Source: Pseudomonadota bacterium (GTDB taxonomy: Bacteria > Pseudomonadota > Gammaproteobacteria > Burkholderiales > Thiobacillaceae). Taken from it: a DNA stretch of 37,904 nt. The translations under genes were made by a program, and so were the position numbers. The notes below the pieces were generated by a model that ran no database searches, was not told where the DNA came from, and was given only the letters and a program-made list of their open reading frames with translations. Shown here piece by piece: positions 9,048-25,946 of the stretch. The stretch covers positions 1 through 37,904 of the forward strand of contig JAJXTE010000011.1 of assembly GCA_021784115.1 (NCBI GenBank), in the 5' to 3' direction. Numbering within the stretch: position 1 is the first letter of the stretch; each line of letters opens with the position of its first letter.

Positions 9048-9641
9048 TCAGAACTTGTACACCATGCCGGCCGAGAGCAGGTCAACGTCCGCTTCGCCCG
9101 TGCCTCCATTGGCGGCCGGACTGCCCGTTTTGAAATAGCGTTCCCATTCCATGCGGAGCCCGACCGACTTGGTGAAATTGTATTGAGCGCCCAGACCCAA
9201 TGACCATACGACATCGGTATCTCCCGTGTTGTTGGTCGGGGTGCCGGCAATCGTGCCGTTGACTTCGGTATTCAGGATATTCATTCCGCCGCGGCCGATC
9301 AGGGTGAAGCTGGGATTGAGTGCATACGTTCCGACCAGTTGAAGGGTCATTCCGTTTGTTTCTCTAGAGCCGACCTTTGCGCCGGTGTACCCGACTTTGC
9401 CCAAGTCGATATAGCCAACTTCCATGGAAATGTATTCGTTCATTTCCAGGCCGCCGTATACCTTCCAGGCGGTGTCTTTATCGTCGCATGAGGTGCCGGC
9501 CGGACAGGAGGTGTCCGCGGTGGACTGGCCTACGTTCGCGCCGACGTAAGGCGCCAGGGTGAAATCGAAAAAGCCGGCGGACGCAGGGGTGGAAAGGGCC
9601 ATGGCCGAGGCGATGGCAGCGGCGAGACGCATTGTGCGCAT
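9048..9641 (-). CDS. OmpA-like outer-membrane beta-barrel protein
   Basis: 197 aa. A cleavable signal peptide is clear: MRTMRLAAAIASAMALSTPASA, then mature GFFDFTLAPYVGANVG. The mature part has alternating amphipathic strands (YISMEVGYIDLG, GMTLQLVGTYAL, FTLIGRGGMNI, VVWSLGLGAQYNF, VGLRMEWERYF) and ends in MVYKF, a C-terminal Phe typical of outer-membrane barrels. An eight-strand OmpA/OprF-type N domain is likely, without a peptidoglycan-binding domain. Two Cys in a loop (SCPAGTSC) may form a disulfide. GGAGGAG lies 6 bases before the ATG. It is transcribed alone and stops at the shared terminator. The ligand or role is unknown. Confidence 0.85.
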   Translation of the reverse strand: MRTMRLAAAIASAMALSTPASAGFFDFTLAPYVGANVGQSTADTSCPAGTSCDDKDTAWKVYGGLEMNEYISMEVGYIDLGKVGYTGAKVGSRETNGMTLQLVGTYALNPSFTLIGRGGMNILNTEVNGTIAGTPTNNTGDTDVVWSLGLGAQYNFTKSVGLRMEWERYFKTGSPAANGGTGEADVDLLSAGMVYKF

Positions 9642-9965
9642 TTGTAACTCCTCCAGATAATGAATTTATTGTGATGTTTGACGAGCCAGGTACCCGACGA
9701 AGCCCGAAACGGCCTGGATGGACAAGGCCAATGACAGATTAATGGATTTTGTTCATTTTAGGTAGTCGGCCGCGCACTGAATGAGGCAGGAACGCTCGGA
9801 AAAGCCGGGAACTGGACAGGGAGGGGGGATTGCCAGAATTCGACAAGCACGTGGGCAAGGCACACCCCATGGTCATTCAGGCAGAGCGGGACGGCGAGGG
9901 CAGGCGATCACATTCAAGCCGATCCTTGCGCGCATCCATGGGTTGACCAGATGGTTGCGGGGCAA
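9642..9965. other. Non-coding stretch upstream of the OmpA-like gene
   Basis: This 324-bp gap contains the leader of the OmpA-like gene, with its Shine-Dalgarno GGAGGAG, and an AT-richer patch around 9735-9765 that could hold the leftward promoter. I could not assign hexamers with confidence. An open frame running rightwards from 9781 has no recognisable protein features and runs antisense over the next gene. No repeat or RNA gene was seen. Confidence 0.5.
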
Positions 9966-10469
9966 CTATTTGAGCTTCGTGTCTTCGCGCTTGGCTTCCG
10001 CCATGGCCTCGGGCTCCAATTCCTCCGCGGAACGATTAAACCGAATGAAGATGCCCCAGCCAGCCAGGATGACGCCAACGGAGAGCAGGATGCTCGCCGC
10101 AAAGGGCAGTTGGGCGGGATCCTCGTGCAGGGCCTTGAACGTGGCAACAAGCCCTTCGATGGCGAGCGCGACCACGACGACGACGAAGAATCTGGACAGG
10201 AAGCGCCTGACCCGGGTCGGTGCGCTGATGTGGGCGGCGCGAATGACCTCTTCCTCGGCGATGGTCTGTGCGATCTGCAAGGCCACGACGGCGGCGGCAA
10301 GCAGACCTACCGCTTCGATGATCTCCTGGGCCGCGGACTGATCCAGCCCTGAGGTGAACGCGGTCCACCCCATATGCGCCGCGACCACCACGAGCATGAT
10401 TGCCGCGCAGGCAAAGAGCAGGGCCATGAGCCCATGGACGATTGCAAATGCGCGCATGATGGCTTTCAT
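9966..10469 (-). CDS. Unrecognised four-helix membrane protein
   Basis: 167 aa from ATG 10469 (MKAIMRAFAIVHGLM); the frame stays open 17 codons upstream. I do not recognise the family. Four hydrophobic segments are visible at about residues 8-34, 50-68, 91-112 and 120-142, so it is an inner-membrane protein. A charged segment (AEEEVIRAAHISAPTRVRRF) lies between helices 2 and 3, and an acidic-basic tail (EELEPEAMAEAKREDTK) ends it. It is monocistronic, between the OmpA-like gene and the divergent flhB. No function is proposed. Confidence 0.7.
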   Translation of the reverse strand: MKAIMRAFAIVHGLMALLFACAAIMLVVVAAHMGWTAFTSGLDQSAAQEIIEAVGLLAAAVVALQIAQTIAEEEVIRAAHISAPTRVRRFLSRFFVVVVVALAIEGLVATFKALHEDPAQLPFAASILLSVGVILAGWGIFIRFNRSAEELEPEAMAEAKREDTKLK

Positions 10470-10551
10470 CAAAACATCATGGCACATAAGCTTGCAGGGT
10501 GCGATGCCTTGCCGTGGCATTCCCGGGGGCGTCCAATCGGACTCCGCACTG

Positions 10552-10567: not shown

Positions 10568-10734
10568 AGTGTTCTCGGGGCCGGGGTGCTCCGTCCTCAT
10601 CGACGTCATCGCGCCGCTTTGTTCAGGCAGCGCGGGCAATCAAACCGCGGTCCTCTCTGCAGCCATCTGCTGGCGTGAAGGGCTGAAGACCTGTCCCCGC
10701 CTCGTGCTAGACTCCTCCGAAAGTCGAGAGGAAC

Positions 10735-11499
10735 ATGGCCGAGGAGACAGATCTTTCGCGTACCGAGCCGGCGAGTCCGCGGCGCCTCCAGCAGGCGCGC
10801 AGCGCGGGCGACGTGCCGCGTTCTGCCGAGTTCGCGTCATGGGTCGTGTTGCTGTCCGCGCTGGGCATGCTGGGCTGGCTGGCGCCACGCCTGCTCGGCG
10901 CCCTGCAGGCGCTCAGCGAGGCGGCATTCATCCATGCTGCGAAGCCGTTTTCCCCGGCTTTTCTCCAAGCGGCATGGTCGGCACTGTGGGCTGTGTTGCC
11001 GGTACTGGCCGTCATCTTTGTCGCGACCCTGGTGGCGCCGATCCTGCTGTCCGGCTGGGTGTTTGCGCCCCAGGTCAGCCAGGTCGACCTCACACGCGCC
11101 AATCCCTTCAAACCTCTTTCCAGGCTGTTTACGGTCGAGTCTTTGTTCGATGGATCGCTGATGTTACTGAAACTGGCGCTTGCTGCCGCAGCAGTCGGCT
11201 GGGCACTGGCGAGCGGCTGGCCGGGGCTGCAAAGCCTGACCCGAAGCGGAATGAGCGTCGCGCTGGACATGACGGCCGCCTGGGTGGGACGCGGCGTCCT
11301 GGTGCTGGCGGCGGCGCTGACGCTGGCGGCGGCAATGGATGCCGGCTGGCGCTGGTGGCGCTATCTGCGCCGCCACGCAATGACCTGGCAGGACATGCAG
11401 GCTGAGGCCCGCGAATCCGAGGTCAACCCCGAAGTGCGTGCACAGTTGCGCGGCCGCCAGCAACGGGCCGGCCAGCGTGTTGACGAGGTGATCGGGTGA
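10735..11499 (+). CDS. flhB: Flagellar export protein FlhB, C-terminal domain missing
   Basis: 254 aa, against roughly 350-380 for complete FlhB. FlhB is an inner-membrane part of the flagellar type III export gate; its cytosolic domain cleaves itself at NPTH to switch substrate class. The membrane half is clear: TEPASPRRLQQARSAGDVPRS at the start, four hydrophobic segments, then the PFKPLSRLFTVESLFDG loop. The connector AMTWQDMQAEARESEVNPEVRA is present, and the protein stops at RQQRAGQRVDEVIG. The NPTH site and everything after it are absent. The stop codon overlaps the flhA start, so there is no room for the lost domain here. It may be split, defective or complemented elsewhere. Confidence 0.9.
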   Translation: MAEETDLSRTEPASPRRLQQARSAGDVPRSAEFASWVVLLSALGMLGWLAPRLLGALQALSEAAFIHAAKPFSPAFLQAAWSALWAVLPVLAVIFVATLVAPILLSGWVFAPQVSQVDLTRANPFKPLSRLFTVESLFDGSLMLLKLALAAAAVGWALASGWPGLQSLTRSGMSVALDMTAAWVGRGVLVLAAALTLAAAMDAGWRWWRYLRRHAMTWQDMQAEARESEVNPEVRAQLRGRQQRAGQRVDEVIG

Positions 11500-13574
11500 G
11501 CGCGCAGGGCGTGATGGTGATGGGCCTGCCGGCAAACCGGCTGGCGGTTCCGGGGTTGGTCCTGCTGATTCTGGCGATGATGGTTCTGCCGTTACCCACC
11601 TTCATGCTCGACGTCCTGTTCACGCTCAACATTGCGCTGGCGATGATCGTGATGCTGGTGAGCCTGAACGCGCGGCGCCCGCTGGATTTTTCGGTTTTCC
11701 CCACGGTGCTGCTGCTGACGACGCTGCTGCGCCTGTCGCTCAACGTCGCGTCAACCCGCATCATCCTGATGCAGGGCCACACCGGACCGGAGGCGGCGGG
11801 CAAGGTAATCGAGTCGTTCGGCAATTTCCTGGTCGGCGGCAACATTGCGGTCGGCTTCGTGGTGTTCCTGATCCTGGTAATCATCAATTTCGTCGTCATC
11901 ACCAAGGGCGCCGGCCGCATTGCCGAGGTGGCGGCGCGCTTCACGCTCGATTCGATGCCGGGCAAGCAACTGGCGGTCGATGCCGATCTGAACGCAGGCT
12001 TCATCAACGAGTCCGAGGCACGCACACGACGCGGCGAGATCGGACGGGAAGCCGATTTCTACGGCGCGATGGACGGCGCCTCCAAGTTCGTGCGCGGCGA
12101 TGCCATCGCCGGCATGATCATCCTCGTGGTCAACCTGATCGGCGGCATCGCGGTGGGCATGCTGCAACACAACCTCGGGGTCTCGGAAGCGCTCGGACGC
12201 TATGCCTTGCTGACCGTGGGCGATGGGTTGGTAACGCAGATTCCCGCGCTGATCATCTCGACTGCGGCGGGCATCGTGGTAAGCCGCGCGTCGAGCGAAC
12301 AGGATCTGTCGCGCGAGTTTTCCACCCAGATATTCGGCCGTCCGCAAACGCTGTACGTGGCCGCCGCGGTGCTGGGTGCGCTCGGCGTGATTCCAGGAAC
12401 GCCGCACCTGGCGTTCCTGACCATCGCCGCGGTGCTGGGCGGACTGGGATTCTGGCTGATGCGCCGTCAGCGCACGACGGCATTTGCCGTCGCACCCATG
12501 GAACTGATCGAAACGGAGACCGCACCGGCCGACGTCACTTGGGACGACATCCCGCCGGTCGACGTGCTGGCGCTCGAGGTCGGCTACCGGCTGATTCCGC
12601 TGGTCGACCGCAACCAGGGCGGGGCCGCGCTGAACAAGATCACCGAGGCGCGGCGGCGTTTCGCCACCGACATGGGCCTGGTGGTGCCGCTCATCCGCGT
12701 GCGCGACAACCTCGATCTGAAGCCCAGCAGCTATCGGATCACGCTCAAGGGCGTCGACGTGGCGCATGGCGAATTGCCCAGCGGCCAGGTGCTGGCAGTG
12801 GACATGGGCGACGTGCTCGGCCGCCTCGATGGCGCGCCTGGATCGGATCCACTGACCGGGCTGGGCGGGGTCTGGATTGACGCCGGCCGCGTGGAGGAGG
12901 CCGAACTGCGGGGCTTTGTCGTGCTGGAACCTGCCGAGCTGATCGCGCGTCAGGTCGAAGCCGTATTCCGCCAGCATGCACCGGAACTGCTCGGGCGCAC
13001 CGAAGTGCAGCAGTTGCTCGACACGCTGGCGCGCAGCCATCCGGGGCTGGTCGAGGACGTGACGCCGCGCCACCTACCACTGACCAGCGTGCAGGCCGTT
13101 CTGCAGCAGCTCATCGCGGAAAACGTCTCGATCCGCGATACCCGCACCCTGTTTGAAACGCTGGCTGCACGCGCACCGAAAAGCCAGGCGATCGACGAAC
13201 TGGTGGAGACCGTGCGCGCGGCGCTCGGGCGCAGCATCGTCGACCGTTTGTTTGAAGGAGGCGACACGTTGCAAGTGATTGGCCTGGCGGCTGCGACCGA
13301 AACCCGCTTGCTGAACGAGATGGGCGAGGAGGGGGAGGCGCTGCTGTCGCCCGCCACCCTGGATGCCCTGAACGACGCGGCCGAGCGCGCACTGGCGGAG
13401 CAGGAAGGCGCTGGCAATCCGCCGGTGCTGTTGACCTCGCCGGGTCTGCGCGCCATTCTGTCGCGACTGTTGCGGCGCAACCTGCCGCGGCTTGCGGTGA
13501 TTGCCTACGCCGAGGTGCCTGCCGATAAGGTCGTGCAGGTGAATACGGAACTGTCTATCGGGGAGGGCGCATGA
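11496..13574 (+). CDS. flhA: Flagellar export gate protein FlhA
   Basis: 692 aa, full length. FlhA forms the nonameric ring of the export gate and binds chaperone-substrate complexes. The N-terminal half has about eight membrane helices. The signature region is RRGEIGREADFYGAMDGASKFVRGDAIAG, and NVASTRIIL is also conserved. A long cytosolic domain follows from about residue 330 (DVLALEVGYRLIPLVD, then VLQQLIAENVSIRDTRTLFE). The GTG at 11496 overlaps the flhB TGA (GTGA), indicating translational coupling; ATG 11514 is an alternative start. The stop overlaps the flhF ATG. Unlike FlhB it shows no domain loss. Confidence 0.94.
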   Translation: MSAQGVMVMGLPANRLAVPGLVLLILAMMVLPLPTFMLDVLFTLNIALAMIVMLVSLNARRPLDFSVFPTVLLLTTLLRLSLNVASTRIILMQGHTGPEAAGKVIESFGNFLVGGNIAVGFVVFLILVIINFVVITKGAGRIAEVAARFTLDSMPGKQLAVDADLNAGFINESEARTRRGEIGREADFYGAMDGASKFVRGDAIAGMIILVVNLIGGIAVGMLQHNLGVSEALGRYALLTVGDGLVTQIPALIISTAAGIVVSRASSEQDLSREFSTQIFGRPQTLYVAAAVLGALGVIPGTPHLAFLTIAAVLGGLGFWLMRRQRTTAFAVAPMELIETETAPADVTWDDIPPVDVLALEVGYRLIPLVDRNQGGAALNKITEARRRFATDMGLVVPLIRVRDNLDLKPSSYRITLKGVDVAHGELPSGQVLAVDMGDVLGRLDGAPGSDPLTGLGGVWIDAGRVEEAELRGFVVLEPAELIARQVEAVFRQHAPELLGRTEVQQLLDTLARSHPGLVEDVTPRHLPLTSVQAVLQQLIAENVSIRDTRTLFETLAARAPKSQAIDELVETVRAALGRSIVDRLFEGGDTLQVIGLAAATETRLLNEMGEEGEALLSPATLDALNDAAERALAEQEGAGNPPVLLTSPGLRAILSRLLRRNLPRLAVIAYAEVPADKVVQVNTELSIGEGA

Positions 13575-14743
13575 GCGTGCAGGTATTCGTGGCAGCGAAT
13601 GCGCGCGAAGGCTTGGCTCGCATCCGGCGAGAATTGGGTGACGACGCCGTGGTGCTGTCCACTCGGTCGCATCCGCACGGCGTTGAACTGCTCGCCAGTG
13701 CCTACGGGGATTTGGCGGTGCCGGCTGTCAGCGAAGCGCCGGACCCAGCGGGCGGTTCGCGCATTTTGAATGAATTGTCGCGCCTGCGCGGCATGCTGCA
13801 GAACCAGCTGGCTGGCTTTGCCTGGGGGAGCGCGCGGCGCCGCGACCCGGTCAGGGTCGAACTGATGCAAACGCTGTTCGCGGCCGGTTTCGGCAGTTCG
13901 CTGGCCCGTACGCTGGCAGCGCGCCTGCCGCGGGGGCTCGACGCCGAGGCCGCCCAGCGCTGGCTGCGCCAGGTATTGATCCGCAACTTGCCGGTACTGG
14001 GGCGCGAAGCCGATCTGCTGGTCAGCGGAGGCCGCTACGCTCTGGTTGGCTCCACTGGCTCGGGCAAGACGACCACGCTTGCCAAGCTTGCCGCGCGTGG
14101 GGTGGACGTGCACGGCGCGACGCAGGTGGCGCTGGTGGCGGCGGATGCGTACCGAATCGGTGCGGCGGCGCAGTTGACGGCGTACGCCGATCTGCTGGGG
14201 GTGCCGGTGCATGTTGCCGAAGACCAGGCCAGGCTGGCCCAGGTGTTGCCGCAACTGGCGGCTAAAAAACTGGTGCTGATCGACACCGCGGGATTTGCAC
14301 CGTCCGACCCTCGCACCCGAGAGGGCGCGGCGCTCGATGCGCTGGGGGTGCGCCGCGTCGCGGTGATTTCGGCCAGCCAGCAAGGGGCCGCGATCGAGCA
14401 GGCGATGACGCGTTTTGGCCAGGGGGCGGCCGCCTGCATCCTCACCAAGCTCGACGAAACCCCGCAGCCGGGGGCGGCGCTCGACAGCCTGATCCGCCAT
14501 CGGCTGCCGCTGGCTTATGTCAGCGGCGGGCAGCGCGTGCCGGAAGACCTGCACGCACCCAGCGCGGCCTATCTCATCGACCGCGCGCTGAAAGGAGGCC
14601 ACCTCGCCACCCCCTACGCGCTGGAGGCCGAAGACTGGCCGCTGTTCGCCGGCGTCGAGGCCGAACGCGCGGAGCACCGCACCGAGCAGGGTACAAGCAC
14701 CGCGAAGGGCATGCCTGCCCAAAAGGGCACACGTGCCGGCTGA
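13571..14743 (+). CDS. flhF: Flagellar SRP-like GTPase FlhF
   Basis: 390 aa. FlhF is the SRP-family GTPase that sets the site and number of polar flagella. The N-terminal B domain starts VQVFVAANAREGLARIRRELG. The NG domain has the P-loop GSTGSGKTTT (about 160-169), ADAYRIGAAAQL, the DTAGF switch (about 238-242) and TKLDE (about 292-296). All GTPase motifs look functional. ATG 13571 overlaps the flhA stop by 4 bp, and the gene overlaps the next by 11 bp. A short Lys/Gly-rich tail ends the protein. Confidence 0.93.
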   Translation: MSVQVFVAANAREGLARIRRELGDDAVVLSTRSHPHGVELLASAYGDLAVPAVSEAPDPAGGSRILNELSRLRGMLQNQLAGFAWGSARRRDPVRVELMQTLFAAGFGSSLARTLAARLPRGLDAEAAQRWLRQVLIRNLPVLGREADLLVSGGRYALVGSTGSGKTTTLAKLAARGVDVHGATQVALVAADAYRIGAAAQLTAYADLLGVPVHVAEDQARLAQVLPQLAAKKLVLIDTAGFAPSDPRTREGAALDALGVRRVAVISASQQGAAIEQAMTRFGQGAAACILTKLDETPQPGAALDSLIRHRLPLAYVSGGQRVPEDLHAPSAAYLIDRALKGGHLATPYALEAEDWPLFAGVEAERAEHRTEQGTSTAKGMPAQKGTRAG

Positions 14744-15395
14744 CCAGGCCGCCGGGTTACGACGGCGCACCGTTCCGCAGCGGCTACGCTGCATCTGCTG
14801 TCTTTCAGACGCCACTGATTCGAGCCTTCGTTTGGCGCACGCGCTCCATCAAGTCGGTCGGGTCAGTCTTCTGATCGATACGCAGGGCCGTCTGTTTTCC
14901 GCTTCGTCCCCCCGCGCCCTGTTCGACTGGAAGCATCAGCTCGAACGCAGACATCTGCATACGCTGCCGCAGGAATACGGCGAGGGGTGGCATGCGCCCG
15001 GCGTGCAGGCGGATGAGCCTGCCTTGTTCGGCATGGTGGACGGATACGACTATGTGATGTTCGATTCCGCGTGGGGCAACGCAGACCTTGTGCTGCTGCC
15101 GGCCGCGACGCACACCATGGTCATGGACGTACGCCTGACCGGCGAATCGATGCTGCACGCCTACGCGGTGCTCAAGACCCTGTCCCGATCCGGAGCAGCA
15201 TTCAGCGCGGGTCTGCTGGGCGACGCTGCCGCCTGCGAGCGCCTGCAGGAAGCATGCACGCAGTTTCTCGATCCCTCGTGTTTTCAGGCCGTATACAGCG
15301 TCGCACGCGAGGATGATGCATTTGCCGCGCTTGCCGTTAGAATGACGGGCGAGGAGACGGGCCTGACCGCTCGTTATAAAACAGGAAACACCTGA
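14733..15395 (+). CDS. FlhG/FleN-like protein without a P-loop
   Basis: 220 aa from GTG 14733, in the position of flhG between flhF and fliA. FlhG is a MinD-type ATPase that limits flagellar number and stimulates FlhF GTPase through an N-terminal DQAxxLR motif. That motif is present (DQAAGLRR, residues 4-11). The expected GKGGVGKT P-loop is replaced by CLSDATDSSLRL, so ATP binding is unlikely. Weak MinD-like traces remain: VSLLIDTQG, DYVMFDSAWGNADLV (Walker B-like), and AYAVLKTLSRSG, which resembles the FlhG helix after the second switch. The homology is my inference from motif order and position. It overlaps flhF by 11 bp and is 3 bp from fliA. Confidence 0.75.
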   Translation: MPADQAAGLRRRTVPQRLRCICCLSDATDSSLRLAHALHQVGRVSLLIDTQGRLFSASSPRALFDWKHQLERRHLHTLPQEYGEGWHAPGVQADEPALFGMVDGYDYVMFDSAWGNADLVLLPAATHTMVMDVRLTGESMLHAYAVLKTLSRSGAAFSAGLLGDAAACERLQEACTQFLDPSCFQAVYSVAREDDAFAALAVRMTGEETGLTARYKTGNT

Positions 15396-15398
15396 AAC

Positions 15399-16109
15399 AT
15401 GGCTGGCAAACCCTCGTCACAAGACGAACAGATCACCAAATATGCGCCGCTGGTCAAGCGCATTGCGTATCACATGATGGCTCGCCTGCCCGCCAGCGTC
15501 GAAGTCGACGACCTTATCCAGGTCGGTCTGATCGGCCTGATGGACGCGGTCGGGCGCTTCGACGGCACCCAGGGTGCGCAATTCGAATCCTATGCGACCC
15601 AGCGCATCCGCGGCGCCATGCTGGACGAACTGCGTGAGGCGGACTGGCTGCCGCGCCACGTGCGGCAAAAATCGCGGCAGATCGAATCCGCCATCCACCG
15701 GCTGGAACAGCGCAACGGCAAGTCGCCGTCCGAGCAGGAGATTTCCGCCGAGCTGGGCATGCCGATCGACCAGTATCAGTCGATGCTGGGGGACGTGAAG
15801 TGCTCCCAGCTACTGTATTACGAAGATTTTTCGGATGAAGACAGCGCCAGCTTCCTGGAGCGCTATCTGGTCGACGGCAGCAACGACCCGCTCGCCGTGC
15901 TGGAGGATGAGGGTTTCCGTGAAAGCCTGATCGCCGCGATCCACCATCTGCCCGAGCGCGAGCGCAGCATGATGGGCATGTACTACGAGCAGGACATGAA
16001 CCTGAAGGAAATCGGCGCAGTGCTCGGCGTATCCGAGTCGCGCGTGTGCCAACTGCATTCGCAGGCTGTGGCCCGCCTGCGCGCCCAGCTCAAGATCTGG
16101 AAAGACTGA
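15399..16109 (+). CDS. fliA: Flagellar sigma factor FliA (sigma-28)
   Basis: 236 aa, the usual FliA length. It directs RNA polymerase to late flagellar and chemotaxis promoters. Region 2 is seen in YAPLVKRIAYHMMARLPASVEVDDLIQ, followed by GLIGLMDAVGRFD and FESYATQRIRGAMLDELRE. Region 3 runs through KSPSEQEISAELGM. Region 4 with the helix-turn-helix is LKEIGAVLGVSESRVCQLHSQAVARLR. AGGAAA lies upstream of ATG 15399. It closes the flagellar cluster; no flagellar structural or motor genes follow. Confidence 0.95.
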   Translation: MAGKPSSQDEQITKYAPLVKRIAYHMMARLPASVEVDDLIQVGLIGLMDAVGRFDGTQGAQFESYATQRIRGAMLDELREADWLPRHVRQKSRQIESAIHRLEQRNGKSPSEQEISAELGMPIDQYQSMLGDVKCSQLLYYEDFSDEDSASFLERYLVDGSNDPLAVLEDEGFRESLIAAIHHLPERERSMMGMYYEQDMNLKEIGAVLGVSESRVCQLHSQAVARLRAQLKIWKD

Positions 16110-22180: not shown

Positions 22181-24877
22181 ATGAGCGCACCTGACTGGCA
22201 TCTGACTTCGCCGCTGTATGGCGGCAACGCGGCGTATCTGGAGCAGTTCGGCGACGACGCGCTTGCGCCTTGGCTGACGCAGCCGCTGCCGTCAGCGGAT
22301 GGCGGGTCGGACGCCGCGCAGATCGCTGTGCTGCGGCTGATCAATGCCTATCGCTACCTGGGCGTGAGGAAGGCGGAACTGGATCCCCTGCGGCGTTTCG
22401 AGCCGCCGCCGACGCCGGAACTCGATCCCGAGCACTACGGCCTGACCGAGGCCGATTTGTCGCGCGAATTCGAAACCGGCTCGCTGTTCGGCGTGGAGCG
22501 CACCACGCTGGCCGAGATTCTTCACCGCCTGAACAACGCCTATTGTGGCCATGTCGGCGTGGAATACATGCACATCACCGATGTCGCGCGCAAACGCTGG
22601 CTGCAGGAACGCATCGAGTCGGCGCAGGGGCGATTCGGCGTATCAACGGACCTCAAGAAGCAGCTGCTCAAACGGCTGACCGATGCCGAGACGCTTGAGA
22701 AATTCCTGCACACGCGCCACGTCGGGCAAAAGCGCTTCTCGCTCGAAGGCGCCGAGTCCCTGATCCCGCTGCTCGATCAGGTGATCGCGCGCTGCGCGCG
22801 CCACGGCGCCAAGGAAATCGTGATGGGCATGGCGCATCGCGGGCGCATCAACGTGCTGGCCAACATCATGGGATGTTCGCTGGAAAGCCTGTACGAAGAA
22901 CCGCGCAACGGTTACCCGGATTCGCCGCTGTCGGGCGATGTCAAATACCACCAGGGATTTTCCACCGACATCTCCACGCCCTATGGCCCGGTGCACCTGG
23001 CGTTGGCGTTCAACCCCTCGCATCTCGAGATCGTGCATCCGGTGGTGCGCGGCTCGGTGCGGGCACGGCAGGACCGGCGTGGCGACGTGCTCGGCTACGA
23101 GGTGGTGCCGGTGATCCTGCACGGCGACGCTGCGCTGTCAGGGCAGGGCGTGGTGATGGAAAGTCTCAACATGTCGCAGACGCGCGGCTTCCGGAATGGC
23201 GGTGCGATCCATGTGGTGATCAACAACCAGATCGGCTTCACCACGTCCGACCCGCGCGACGTGCGCTCGACGTTGTATTGCACCGATGTCGCGAAGATGG
23301 TCGAGGCGCCGGTGCTCCACGTCAACGGCGACGACCCCGAGGCGGTGGCCTTCGCGGTGCAGACCGCGGTCGATTACCGCTATACCTTTCACAAGAACTG
23401 CTTCATTGACCTGGTGTGCTATCGCCGTCACGGCCACAACGAGCAGGACGAACCGCTCGCCACCCAGCCGCTGATGTACCGCCGCATCCAGGCGCACCCC
23501 AGCACGCGCATCCTGTACGCGCAGCGGCTGGTCGACGAGGGCGTGCTGACGCAGGCGCAGGCCGACGACTTGGTCGACGTGTGTCGCGAGCGGCTGGAGC
23601 ACGGCGAGTTGCTGAGTTCGCCTGCCTTGTCGGATTTCAAGGCGACCTACGGCATGGATTGGGGGCGCTTCAAGCGCGGCACGGTCAGCGACGTGCCGAC
23701 TGCCGTTTCCGCCACGCGACTGGATTTTCTGGGCGAACGCATCACCACGCTGCAACACGAGATCGAACTGCATTCACGGGTGCAGAAGGTGCTCGATGAC
23801 CGTCGCCGGATGCGCGCGGGCGAATTGCCGGTGGATTGGGGGTATGCCGAGAACCTGGCCTACGCCAGCCTGCTCGATGCCGGCTACAACGTGCGGATAT
23901 CGGGCCAGGATTCGGCGCGCGGCACCTTTTTCCATCGCCATGCCGTATGGCACGACCAGAAGCGCGAGCGCCGCCAGAGCGGGGTGTATGTTCCGCTTGA
24001 ACACATCCACGACCGGCAGGGTGATTTCACCATCATCGATTCGCTGCTGTCGGAAGAAGCGGTGCTGGCGTTCGAATACGGCTATGCCACCGCCGACCCT
24101 GACACGCTGGTGGTGTGGGAGGCGCAGTTCGGGGATTTCGCCAACGGCGCGCAGGTGGTGATCGACCAGTTCATCACCAGCGGCGAAGCCAAATGGGGAC
24201 GTCTGTGCGGTCTTACGCTGATGCTGCCGCACGGGCTGGAGGGGCAGGGGCCCGAGCATTCGTCGGCACGGCTCGAACGCTATCTGCAGCTGTGCGCACA
24301 GGAGAACATCCAGGTCTGTGTGCCGACGCTGCCGGCGCAGATCTTCCACCTCCTGCGACGGCAACTCGTGCGCCCGGCGAGAAAGCCGCTGGTGATCATG
24401 AGCCCCAAGAGCCTGCTGCGCCACCCGGCGTCGACTTCATCGCTGGCGGACCTGAGCGGCGAATCGTTCCTGCCGGTCATCGACGATCCGCGTGCACCGC
24501 GTGACGCCACGCGCGTGGTGGCGTGCAGCGGGCGCGTGTGGTTCGATCTCGAAGCGGCGCGTGAGTCACGCGGGCTGGACGATGTCGCGCTGGTGCGCGT
24601 CGAGCAACTCTATCCGTTTCCCGAAGCGGCGTTCCGTGTCGTCCTCAATGCCTATCCGCAGGCCGAGACGTTCGTCTGGGCGCAGGAAGAACCGATGAAC
24701 CAGGGCGCGTGGTACCAGACCCTGCACCACCTCAACCACTGCGCGCCCGGCGGGCGCCGTTTCCATTATGCTGGCCGCCCCGCAGCTGCCGCGCCTGCGT
24801 CGGGCTACGTATCCCGCCATCGGGCGGAACTGGAAGCGATGCTGAACGACGCGCTGGAGACACCCTATGAAGCTTGA
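22181..24877 (+). CDS. sucA: 2-oxoglutarate dehydrogenase E1 component SucA
   Basis: 898 aa, slightly shorter than the usual 930-950. A thiamine-diphosphate enzyme that decarboxylates 2-oxoglutarate. Motifs: [43 protein letters not shown], the ThDP site [14 protein letters not shown] with [21 protein letters not shown], and late [13 protein letters not shown] and [16 protein letters not shown]. The N-terminal segment before residue 110, which helps bind E2 in related enzymes, is compact ([19 protein letters not shown]). The ATG 22181 has no strong ribosome site. The stop overlaps sucB by 11 bp. No E3 gene is in the window. Confidence 0.95.
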
Positions 24878-25946
24878 GGTGCGCGTGCCCTCCCTCTCCG
24901 ATTCGGTTGCCAGCGGCACCCTGCTGCCGTGGCGCAGGCAGGTCGGCGAGACGGTCGCGCGTGACGAAACCCTGGTCGACCTGGAAACCGACAAGGTGAT
25001 CCTGGAGATCCCCGCACCGGCATCCGGCACCCTGGTCGAAGTGCGCCAGCCCGAGGGGGCCGTGGTCAAGGCCGACGAAGTGGTGGCGGTGATCGAGACT
25101 GGCGAGCATGTCGTGCCGCCAGCAGCCGCGGAAAAGCCGGTGCAGCCGGCCGCTGCCGCGACATCCGTGCCGGCGCCAACTGTGGTGTCGCCGCTGCCAG
25201 TCATGCCGCTGCCCGGTGCGGCAGCCGCCCTGCCGGCTGCCGCACCGGGCGAAAGCCGCCGCGAGCCGATGTCGCGCCTGCGCAGCCGCGTGGCCGAGCG
25301 CCTGGTCGCCGCGCAACACACCGCCGCGATGCTCACCACCTTCAACGAGGTGAACGTGCAGCCGGTGAACGAATTGCGCCAGCGCTTCAAGGCCGAATTC
25401 GAGGTCAGGCACGGCGTGAAGCTCGGCTACATGTCGTTCTTCGTGCGGGCGGTGTGTCAGGGGCTGCAGCAGTTCCCCGTCGTCAACGCCGCCATCGACG
25501 GCAACGACATCGTGTGGCAGGGCGATGCCGACATCGGCATCGCGATCTCGAGTCCGCGCGGACTGGTGGTGCCGATCCTGCGACGCGCGCAGACGCTGTC
25601 GTCAGCCCAAATCGAAGCGGCCATCGCGGACTTTGCCCGCCGCGCGCGCGAGGCGAGGCTCACCCTGGAGGAATTGAGTGGCGGCACGTTCTCGATCACC
25701 AACGGTGGGGTGTTCGGTTCGCTGCTCTCCACTCCCATCCTCAATCCGCCGCAGTCCGCGATTCTCGGCATGCATACCATCCAGGAGCGACCCGTCGCGG
25801 AAAACGGCCAGGTCGTCATCCGCCCGATGATGTATCTGGCGCTGACCTACGACCACCGCCTGATCGACGGGCGGGACGCGGTGCAGTTCCTGGTGGCGGT
25901 GAAGGCGGCGCTGGAAGCGCCCGAGCGGCTGCTGGAGGAAATGTGA
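24867..25946 (+). CDS. sucB: 2-oxoglutarate dehydrogenase E2 (dihydrolipoyl succinyltransferase) lacking the E3-binding domain
   Basis: 359 aa, about 40-60 shorter than usual SucB. The lipoyl domain (1-77) has [12 protein letters not shown] with lipoyl Lys K43. The catalytic domain begins near residue 130 ([16 protein letters not shown]) and holds [13 protein letters not shown], with H330 and D334 in the active site. Between them lies only an Ala/Pro linker of about 50 residues ([16 protein letters not shown] and similar). The peripheral subunit-binding domain, normally about 35 residues with a GTGxxGRI motif, is absent. Human DLST also lacks it. It overlaps sucA by 11 bp and the following ATPase gene by 4 bp. 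How E3 is recruited is open. Confidence 0.93.

Follow-up and report, generated by a model that had tools for sequence, protein, structure and literature searches.

The short FlhB protein encoded in the window (the whole stretch of 37,904 nucleotides analysed here) is not the flagellar FlhB but belongs to a second, reduced paralogous flagellar-type system, which is nearly genus-wide in Thiobacillus. The two operons of this system are conserved in syntenic places and the system is under purifying selection, although the export machine that it encodes seems to make no flagellum. Judging from gene content and conserved promoter-like footprints, we lean slightly towards the view that it is a checkpoint that would export FlgM2 and control type IV pilus genes, with the naturally truncated gate serving as a stand-alone switch.

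The short flhB (hereafter flhBt) lies in an operon with the order flhB(short)-flhA-flhF-degenerate flhG-fliA, which ends at position 16109. The features of the window are as follows:

9966-10520, minus strand: membrane-like protein of 184 aa, divergent from the short flhB; no Pfam/NCBIfam match
10705..10713, plus strand: TGCTAGACT, extended -10 promoter element of sigma70 type, ahead of the short-flhB operon
10735..11499, plus strand: flhBt, 254 aa; membrane domain and connector helix, without the NPTH/C domain
11496..13574, plus strand: flhA2, complete export-gate protein with C-terminal domain (FlhA equivalog, 813 bits; cut-off 772)
13571..14743, plus strand: flhF2, SRP-type GTPase (TIGR03499, 221 bits; cut-off 174)
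14733..15395, plus strand: orfX, degenerate flhG (220 aa); DQAxGLRR kept, Walker A P-loop lost
15399..16109, plus strand: fliA2, second sigma28 factor, that of the reduced system (FliA subfamily, 307 bits; cut-off 201)
22181-25946: genes for proteins of 898 aa and 359 aa, beside sdh and a citrate-synthase-like gene

FlhBt covers positions 2-241 of the 335 in Pfam Bac_export_2 (PF01312; 169 bits), with the four-helix membrane domain present, and scores 129 bits against the flhB equivalog TIGR00328, the cut-off of which is 349. Alignment with full-length FlhB proteins of the same genus (reference rows L009, L017 and L015; L, G and C numbers denote loci, genomes and contigs) places the NPTH site ~17 residues beyond the end of FlhBt, which consists of a short linker followed by VDEVIG. 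The preliminary description had thus been right that the protein stops ahead of NPTH, although it had put the distance at about 15 residues, and right that the end is tidy and fused to the flhA start, given that the TGA stop overlaps the GTG start of flhA2 at position 11496. The search for the short flhB returned 52 loci, of which 50 contain a complete gene of this type; in L101, the flhB copy is cut by the contig end, and L106, an Oxalobacteraceae MAG, encodes a full-length FlhB of 389 aa, unlike the other loci returned. The same truncation, with both NPTH and the C domain absent, is shared by all 50 complete Thiobacillus-type loci, which settles whether relatives carry it and agrees with the earlier claim that this is not simple decay. 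The 50 copies are 251-304 aa long, with a linker of variable length, a C-terminus of the form [IVF][DN][EG]V plus two residues and a stop of the form [GAT]TGA where the gene meets flhA; part of the conservation here may stem from the ribosome-binding site of flhA (GAGGTGAT) and not from a constraint on the peptide. Most of these loci come from Thiobacillus or Hydrogenophilales, including T. thioparus DSM 505 and T. denitrificans RG, and some from MAGs otherwise named. Among the matches listed for 369 genomes of the class, all but that of the window's own genome sit in open frames of at least 373 aa. In several species, repeats reading PLPNPLPQAGEGANA or near it are inserted in the FlhBt linker (short flhB genes at L034 8019-8924, L042 about 9303-10124 and L044 9122-9991), as though a mobile palindromic element could be accommodated there without loss of frame.

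The neighbouring flhA, flhF and fliA had been described as intact. This holds for flhA and fliA, which look so, and for the P-loop of flhF2 (GSTGSGKT), but the flhG between flhF and fliA is degenerate and without a P-loop. FlhA2 carries the GDAIAG motif and is 86-94% identical in the relatives gene-called; its match to the hrcV model (597 bits) lies below the cut-off of 692, and the protein is not of the SctV/SctU injectisome type. Pfam and NCBIfam searches with orfX gave no match, and its comparison with canonical Thiobacillus FlhG by hhalign returned a probability of 97% (E 5e-11). Across 47 copies of orfX from 59 loci, in which some genomes are represented twice, DQA.GLRR is invariably present (47/47), whereas GKT never occurs within the first 60 residues (0/47). 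The order flhB-flhA-flhF-x-fliA is identical in the seven gene-called relatives with a complete stretch. The TGCTAGACT box is found within 150 bp upstream of flhBt in 50 of 51 loci, among them the window, and TATAAT is present in all nine sequences printed for the region upstream of fliF2, suggesting that the reduced system is transcribed by the housekeeping sigma factor. The 184-aa membrane-like protein has a 93% identical relative in the same position in G016 and none called in the other loci of this operon. The 898-aa and 359-aa genes further downstream look like 2-oxoglutarate dehydrogenase E1 and E2, which is worthy of note because Thiobacillus is an obligate chemolithoautotroph.

A second operon, fliF-G-H-I-J-orfY-O-P-Q-R, is located on contig C155 of the window's genome (2.23 Mb in 155 contigs, 91.3% complete). 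The families identified in the two operons (FliF, FliG, FliHIJ, FliOQR, FliP, FlhA and FlhB) amount to an MS ring and an export gate. The fliF-to-fliR order is constant in the ten relatives gene-called, the exception being orfY of G003 (locus L051), which was overlooked by the gene caller. The nine best PDB matches to the predicted structure of OrfY (mean pLDDT 84) are all FliM chains (Foldseek probability 0.99-1.00, E 0.0016-0.015, none at or below 0.001), and the protein is probably a remnant that, according to this model, folds like the FliM middle domain. In two of the ten relatives gene-called, the stretch directly upstream of fliF2 encodes a CHASE2 histidine kinase, a LysM/FecR protein and a response regulator (L043 13668-17916 in G010 and L050 1284-5543 in G004, the family assignments being those of L043).

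Across 36 genomes of the genus (the window's own and 35 others), full-length flhB is present in 30 and short flhB in 31; a fragment of the latter is found in G018, and four genomes show none. The short form was found in none of 24 genomes representing other families in the order. Short flhB without a full-length counterpart occurs in G000, G015, G029 and G035, and FliP and FliF each come in two types, canonical and reduced, among the 17 genomes searched. The reduced system stands alone in the window's genome and four relatives (together G000, G003, G015, G029 and G035), of which G000, G015 and G029 are 91-97% complete. In a tree of 43 FlhA rows based on the N-terminal part, the reduced system forms one clade (100/100, branch 0.85), its sister group not being fixed; canonical Thiobacillus FlhA and one Oxalobacteraceae row fall on the same side of the tree. 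In a plasmid collection searched with flhA, all matches had 60-80% identity and fell short of 80% query coverage. Contig C57 of G002 carries additional C-only FlhB, FliE and flagellin matches and contig C105 of G033 a second full-length flhB, both of which may represent further flagellar clusters. The G035 bin, with 6% contamination, holds two differing short flhB copies (contigs C91 and C50; L047 and L048) and may combine two species. A literature search, from which subscription journals were mostly excluded, turned up no description of the Thiobacillus reduced system, nor is it mentioned in the available portions of the Ferrovum genome paper, the T. thioparus genome paper and a survey of flagellar gene loss.

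Several parts needed for a flagellum were not found. Among 17 genomes of the genus, no rod/hook match (PF06429) was obtained in seven (G000, G003, G004, G009, G015, G029 and G035), no flagellin (PF00669) in five (G000, G003, G009, G015 and G029), and neither FliM/N (PF01052) nor FliE (PF02049) in six (G000, G003, G009, G015, G029 and G035). For the five genomes with the reduced system only, this translates into 0/5 for PF06429, PF02049 and PF01052 alike and 1/5 for PF00669, the lone flagellin match coming from the contaminated G035 bin. The other 11 genomes encode one FliM, one FliN and one FliE each, except for two FliE in G002, suggesting that the reduced system is without its own. A single family missing in one draft genome proves little: as a case in point, G004 has canonical FlhB, FliP and FliM, yet no PF06429 match. 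Furthermore, the EHPQ, Arg and GPVR residues of FliG, which we take to have a role in FliM binding and torque, are lost from FliG2 in 11/11 rows and kept in 4/4 rows of canonical FliG. Overall, the gene set looks like an MS ring with an export gate and neither motor nor axis. The premise of hook-length switching, raised in the preliminary description, is inapplicable here because rod/hook, FliE and flagellin matches were not found in the window's own genome.

What a gate of this kind might do is suggested by Salmonella: where flk has been lost too, a stop at position 258 of flhB or a deletion of 270-383 fixes the gate in late mode, as described in the accessible part of the report (PMC13344023). 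In these mutants, FlgM-Bla reaches the periplasm without rod/hook genes or FliK, whereas the hook protein FlgE is not exported (PMC13344023, same part). The same text states that the lock required Flk loss and raised flhDC activity besides the FlhB truncation (PMC13344023), which is a point against reading the Thiobacillus system as a checkpoint. From the Salmonella late lock, the similar end of the Thiobacillus FlhB and the fact that no early substrate was found, an FlgM was predicted, and it was then found.

Both FlgM2 and FliA2 are present in all 12 reduced-system genomes among the 13 searched, FlgM2 being the sole FlgM in the five without a normal flagellum and accompanying a canonical FlgM in the seven with one. 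FlgM2 scores 68.6 against the FlgM equivalog TIGR03824 (cut-off 40.75) and is encoded at a third locus, apart from both operons. FliA2 proteins from the other 11 of these genomes are 93-99% identical to that of the window, whereas canonical FliA (55-56% identity) is restricted to the seven flagellated genomes of the 13. The remaining genome, G009, gave no match for FlhB, FliP, FliF or FliA2 and a weak one for FlgM, which proved to be a decayed gene:

L221 9144-9383, minus strand: decayed FlgM2 of G009, 79 aa, in the same place; part of the conserved region and the tail lost

The sigma28-type promoter of this decayed flgM2 is still there. The losses in G009 are uncertain, given that the genome is 75% complete.

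A sigma28-type site, TAARG-N14-GCCGWW, precedes flgM2 in 12/12 loci. When eight genomes, all within the genus and all FliA2-bearing, were scanned with this pattern, sites were found at flgM2 (8/8), pilG (7/8) and before mshL (8/8). With 7-14 sites per genome, the pattern is outnumbered by its reversed control in all eight genomes, so raw site counts were rejected as evidence and only orthologous site positions were weighed. The first of the two pilus-associated sites lies ~60 bp upstream of pilG-pilH-pilI-pilJ-chpA in seven of the eight genomes and was not found in G035. In the alignment of these seven upstream regions, no other invariant block is as long as the two boxes, which span 8 and 9 columns; the spacer varies, and the next-longest block, GGAGAAA near the start codon, is likely the ribosome-binding site. 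The second site is embedded in the 3' end of the ATPase gene that precedes mshL; its distance from mshL is 210-254 bp in seven genomes, the exception being G010 with 411 bp. Synonymous sites are frozen there: the codons GCT AAA GAA ... GTA TTA end in A or T in at least seven of the eight genomes, and, of only 11 such columns among the 424 of the ATPase gene, six fall in or beside the site. Family searches identified MshL, a T2SSE/MshEN ATPase, T2SSF, two response regulators, CheW and PilJ in these operons, with an Hpt protein occupying the place of ChpA. Apart from the feedback on flgM2 itself, both putative target operons serve type IV pili, and flgM2, pilG and mshL constitute a putative FliA2 regulon, as indicated by the conserved footprints. 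A further site common to the eight genomes (TAAAGGTGCT...) was dropped, being part of a long open frame that reads KVLEEPPL in the six loci checked. A scan for TAAA/GCCGATAA with at most one mismatch, covering nine reduced-system loci (window included) and eight canonical loci, found nothing.

Taken together, we picture the short FlhB as the gate subunit in a second type III export machine of the flagellar kind, one that would no longer build anything. Deprived of the FlhB C domain, the gate would refuse early (rod/hook) substrates and remain permanently in late mode, and assembly and energisation of the machine would be followed by export of FlgM2, its substrate, to the periplasm. The departure of FlgM2 from the cytoplasm would free FliA2, which could then direct transcription of flgM2, as a feedback, of the pilGHIJ-chpA chemosensory operon and of the MSHA-type mshL operon, whereas FlhF2 and FlhG2 may position the machine at the pole. 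The truncation would thus be the adaptation by which a checkpoint on assembly became a free-standing regulatory switch. The more specific proposal, namely, an export machine without an appendage that serves regulation only, with a switch-less FlhB open for FlgM2 alone and a gate that, when assembled, energised and perhaps polar, activates pilus and surface-sensing genes via a private sigma28, is to us evenly balanced between right and wrong.

Alternatively, the system could be a conserved reduced exporter held in late mode for another cargo, with FliA2 and FlgM2 forming an ordinary pair that is controlled otherwise. We regard this as unlikely, though worth keeping in mind. The engine does look intact, with the GDAIAG motif of FlhA and the GERGREV motif of FliI retained and mean pN/pS values, calculated from 10-15 pairs per gene, of 0.10 for fliI2 and 0.16 for flhA2, and in the loci gene-called no cargo gene was seen as a constant neighbour of the operons. 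However, the flagellin family was not found in 5/17 genomes, G000, G015 and G029 included, and FlgM2, a member of a known late-substrate family, accompanies the system in every system-bearing genome searched (12/12) and is decayed in G009, in which the system was not found.

Rather improbable is a structural checkpoint without export, whereby the MS ring and gate would signal via a two-component system or single parts would act on the pilus. There are precedents for both variants, as far as the available parts of the respective papers go: the activity of the two-component systems FlrBC and FleSR of polar flagellates depends on the fT3SS, the MS ring and the rotor (PMC7064773), and FliI of Lysobacter, proposed to be a PilB-like ATPase, is needed for PilA secretion (PMC7277350). 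The CHASE2 kinase and response regulator upstream of fliF2 in G010 and G004 would suit the first variant, but the window's genome and the eight remaining gene-called relatives do not have the pair in that position, and neither variant explains the conservation of FliA2, the co-occurrence of FlgM2 or the sigma28 sites.

That the genes are a decaying relic of a second flagellum, surviving by chance, is very improbable. Functional motifs have been lost from FliG2, FlhG and FliM, some genomes of the genus show no FlhBt or only a fragment (four and one of 36, respectively), and G009 shows only FlgM2 among the parts sought; nevertheless, FlhBt is kept in 31 of the 36 genomes, with no internal stop among the matches listed, and both operon order and truncation point are conserved. 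Mean pN/pS spans 0.05-0.51 across the system: besides the values given above, it is 0.05 for fliA2 (10 pairs), 0.13 for flgM2, 0.22 for fliG2, 0.33 for flhBt (15 pairs) and 0.51 for orfY.

The preliminary description had offered two ways out for a gate without its C domain, namely, supply of the domain by a separate gene or export without it. The window's genome, at 91.3% completeness, contains a single Bac_export_2 match and neither a second flhB nor a C-domain gene; the second full-length copy considered earlier was hence not found here, but a normal flhB does exist elsewhere in the genome of most relatives. C-only, FlhX-like genes are present in 29 of the 30 genus genomes with full-length flhB, in one of the six without (G003, 8% contamination) and in none of the four that have the short FlhB but no full-length one. 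The C-only gene thus tracks full-length flhB, and no gene seems to supply the C domain to the reduced system, so that separate supply finds no support and export without the domain fits better. An assembly or sequencing error, or a small separate gene for NPTH, has next to no probability: although C-only FlhB-like genes exist in 30/36 genus genomes, they follow full-length flhB and are not matched in the window's own genome, and an error is ruled against by the recurrence of the truncation in 50/50 complete copies.

FlhX-type C-domain proteins provide a known example of the membrane and C parts of FlhB residing on separate chains. Unlike such pairs, the short FlhB occurs without a C-domain gene in the four genomes that lack full-length FlhB. 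The Lysobacter system, here compared from the available parts of the papers, is an independent parallel, alike in that a functional flagellar export gate operates in a non-flagellated bacterium, export in Thiobacillus being deduced from the genes. In L. enzymogenes OH11, which is non-flagellated, flhA, flhB, fliI and fliR are required for type IV pilus twitching, whereas fliP and fliQ are dispensable and FliI acted on PilA secretion (PMC7277350), so that the link to twitching need not run via FlgM. By contrast with Thiobacillus, the Lysobacter apparatus is what remained after flagellum loss, with FlgD still secreted and fliG and fliM among the lost genes (PMC9927559). FliA and FlgM are absent from the main texts of both papers, and the parts available to us mention no FlhB truncation (PMC7277350; PMC9927559). 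The Thiobacillus system is instead a second one, mostly found beside a normal flagellar system, and has FliG, its own sigma28/FlgM pair and a short FlhB. If our preferred reading is true, FlgM export would offer a testable mechanism for the control of twitching by retained flagellar export genes in Lysobacter, and, more generally, the system would show that a type III export gate can persist after the loss of its appendage in a purely regulatory role.

Other close parallels are the canonical flagellar checkpoint and the Salmonella mutants. The sigma28, anti-sigma factor and export gate of the canonical FliA-FlgM-fT3SS checkpoint are homologous to those of the Thiobacillus set, but the former senses the hook-basal body, whereas the latter is without one and likely targets type IV pilus genes and not flagellin. 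With the Salmonella flhB delta-CCD and stop-258 mutants, as portrayed in the accessible part of the report, the Thiobacillus system shares nearly the same cut residue and a lack of rod or hook (PMC13344023). These mutants send FlgM to the periplasm and export no early substrates, a behaviour that the Thiobacillus gate would be expected to mirror (PMC13344023). The Salmonella lock, on that account, is a laboratory construct, whereas truncation is the normal, conserved state in Thiobacillus; the short FlhB is apparently a natural counterpart of the C-domain deletion and, as such, would provide an evolutionary test of the late-lock model.
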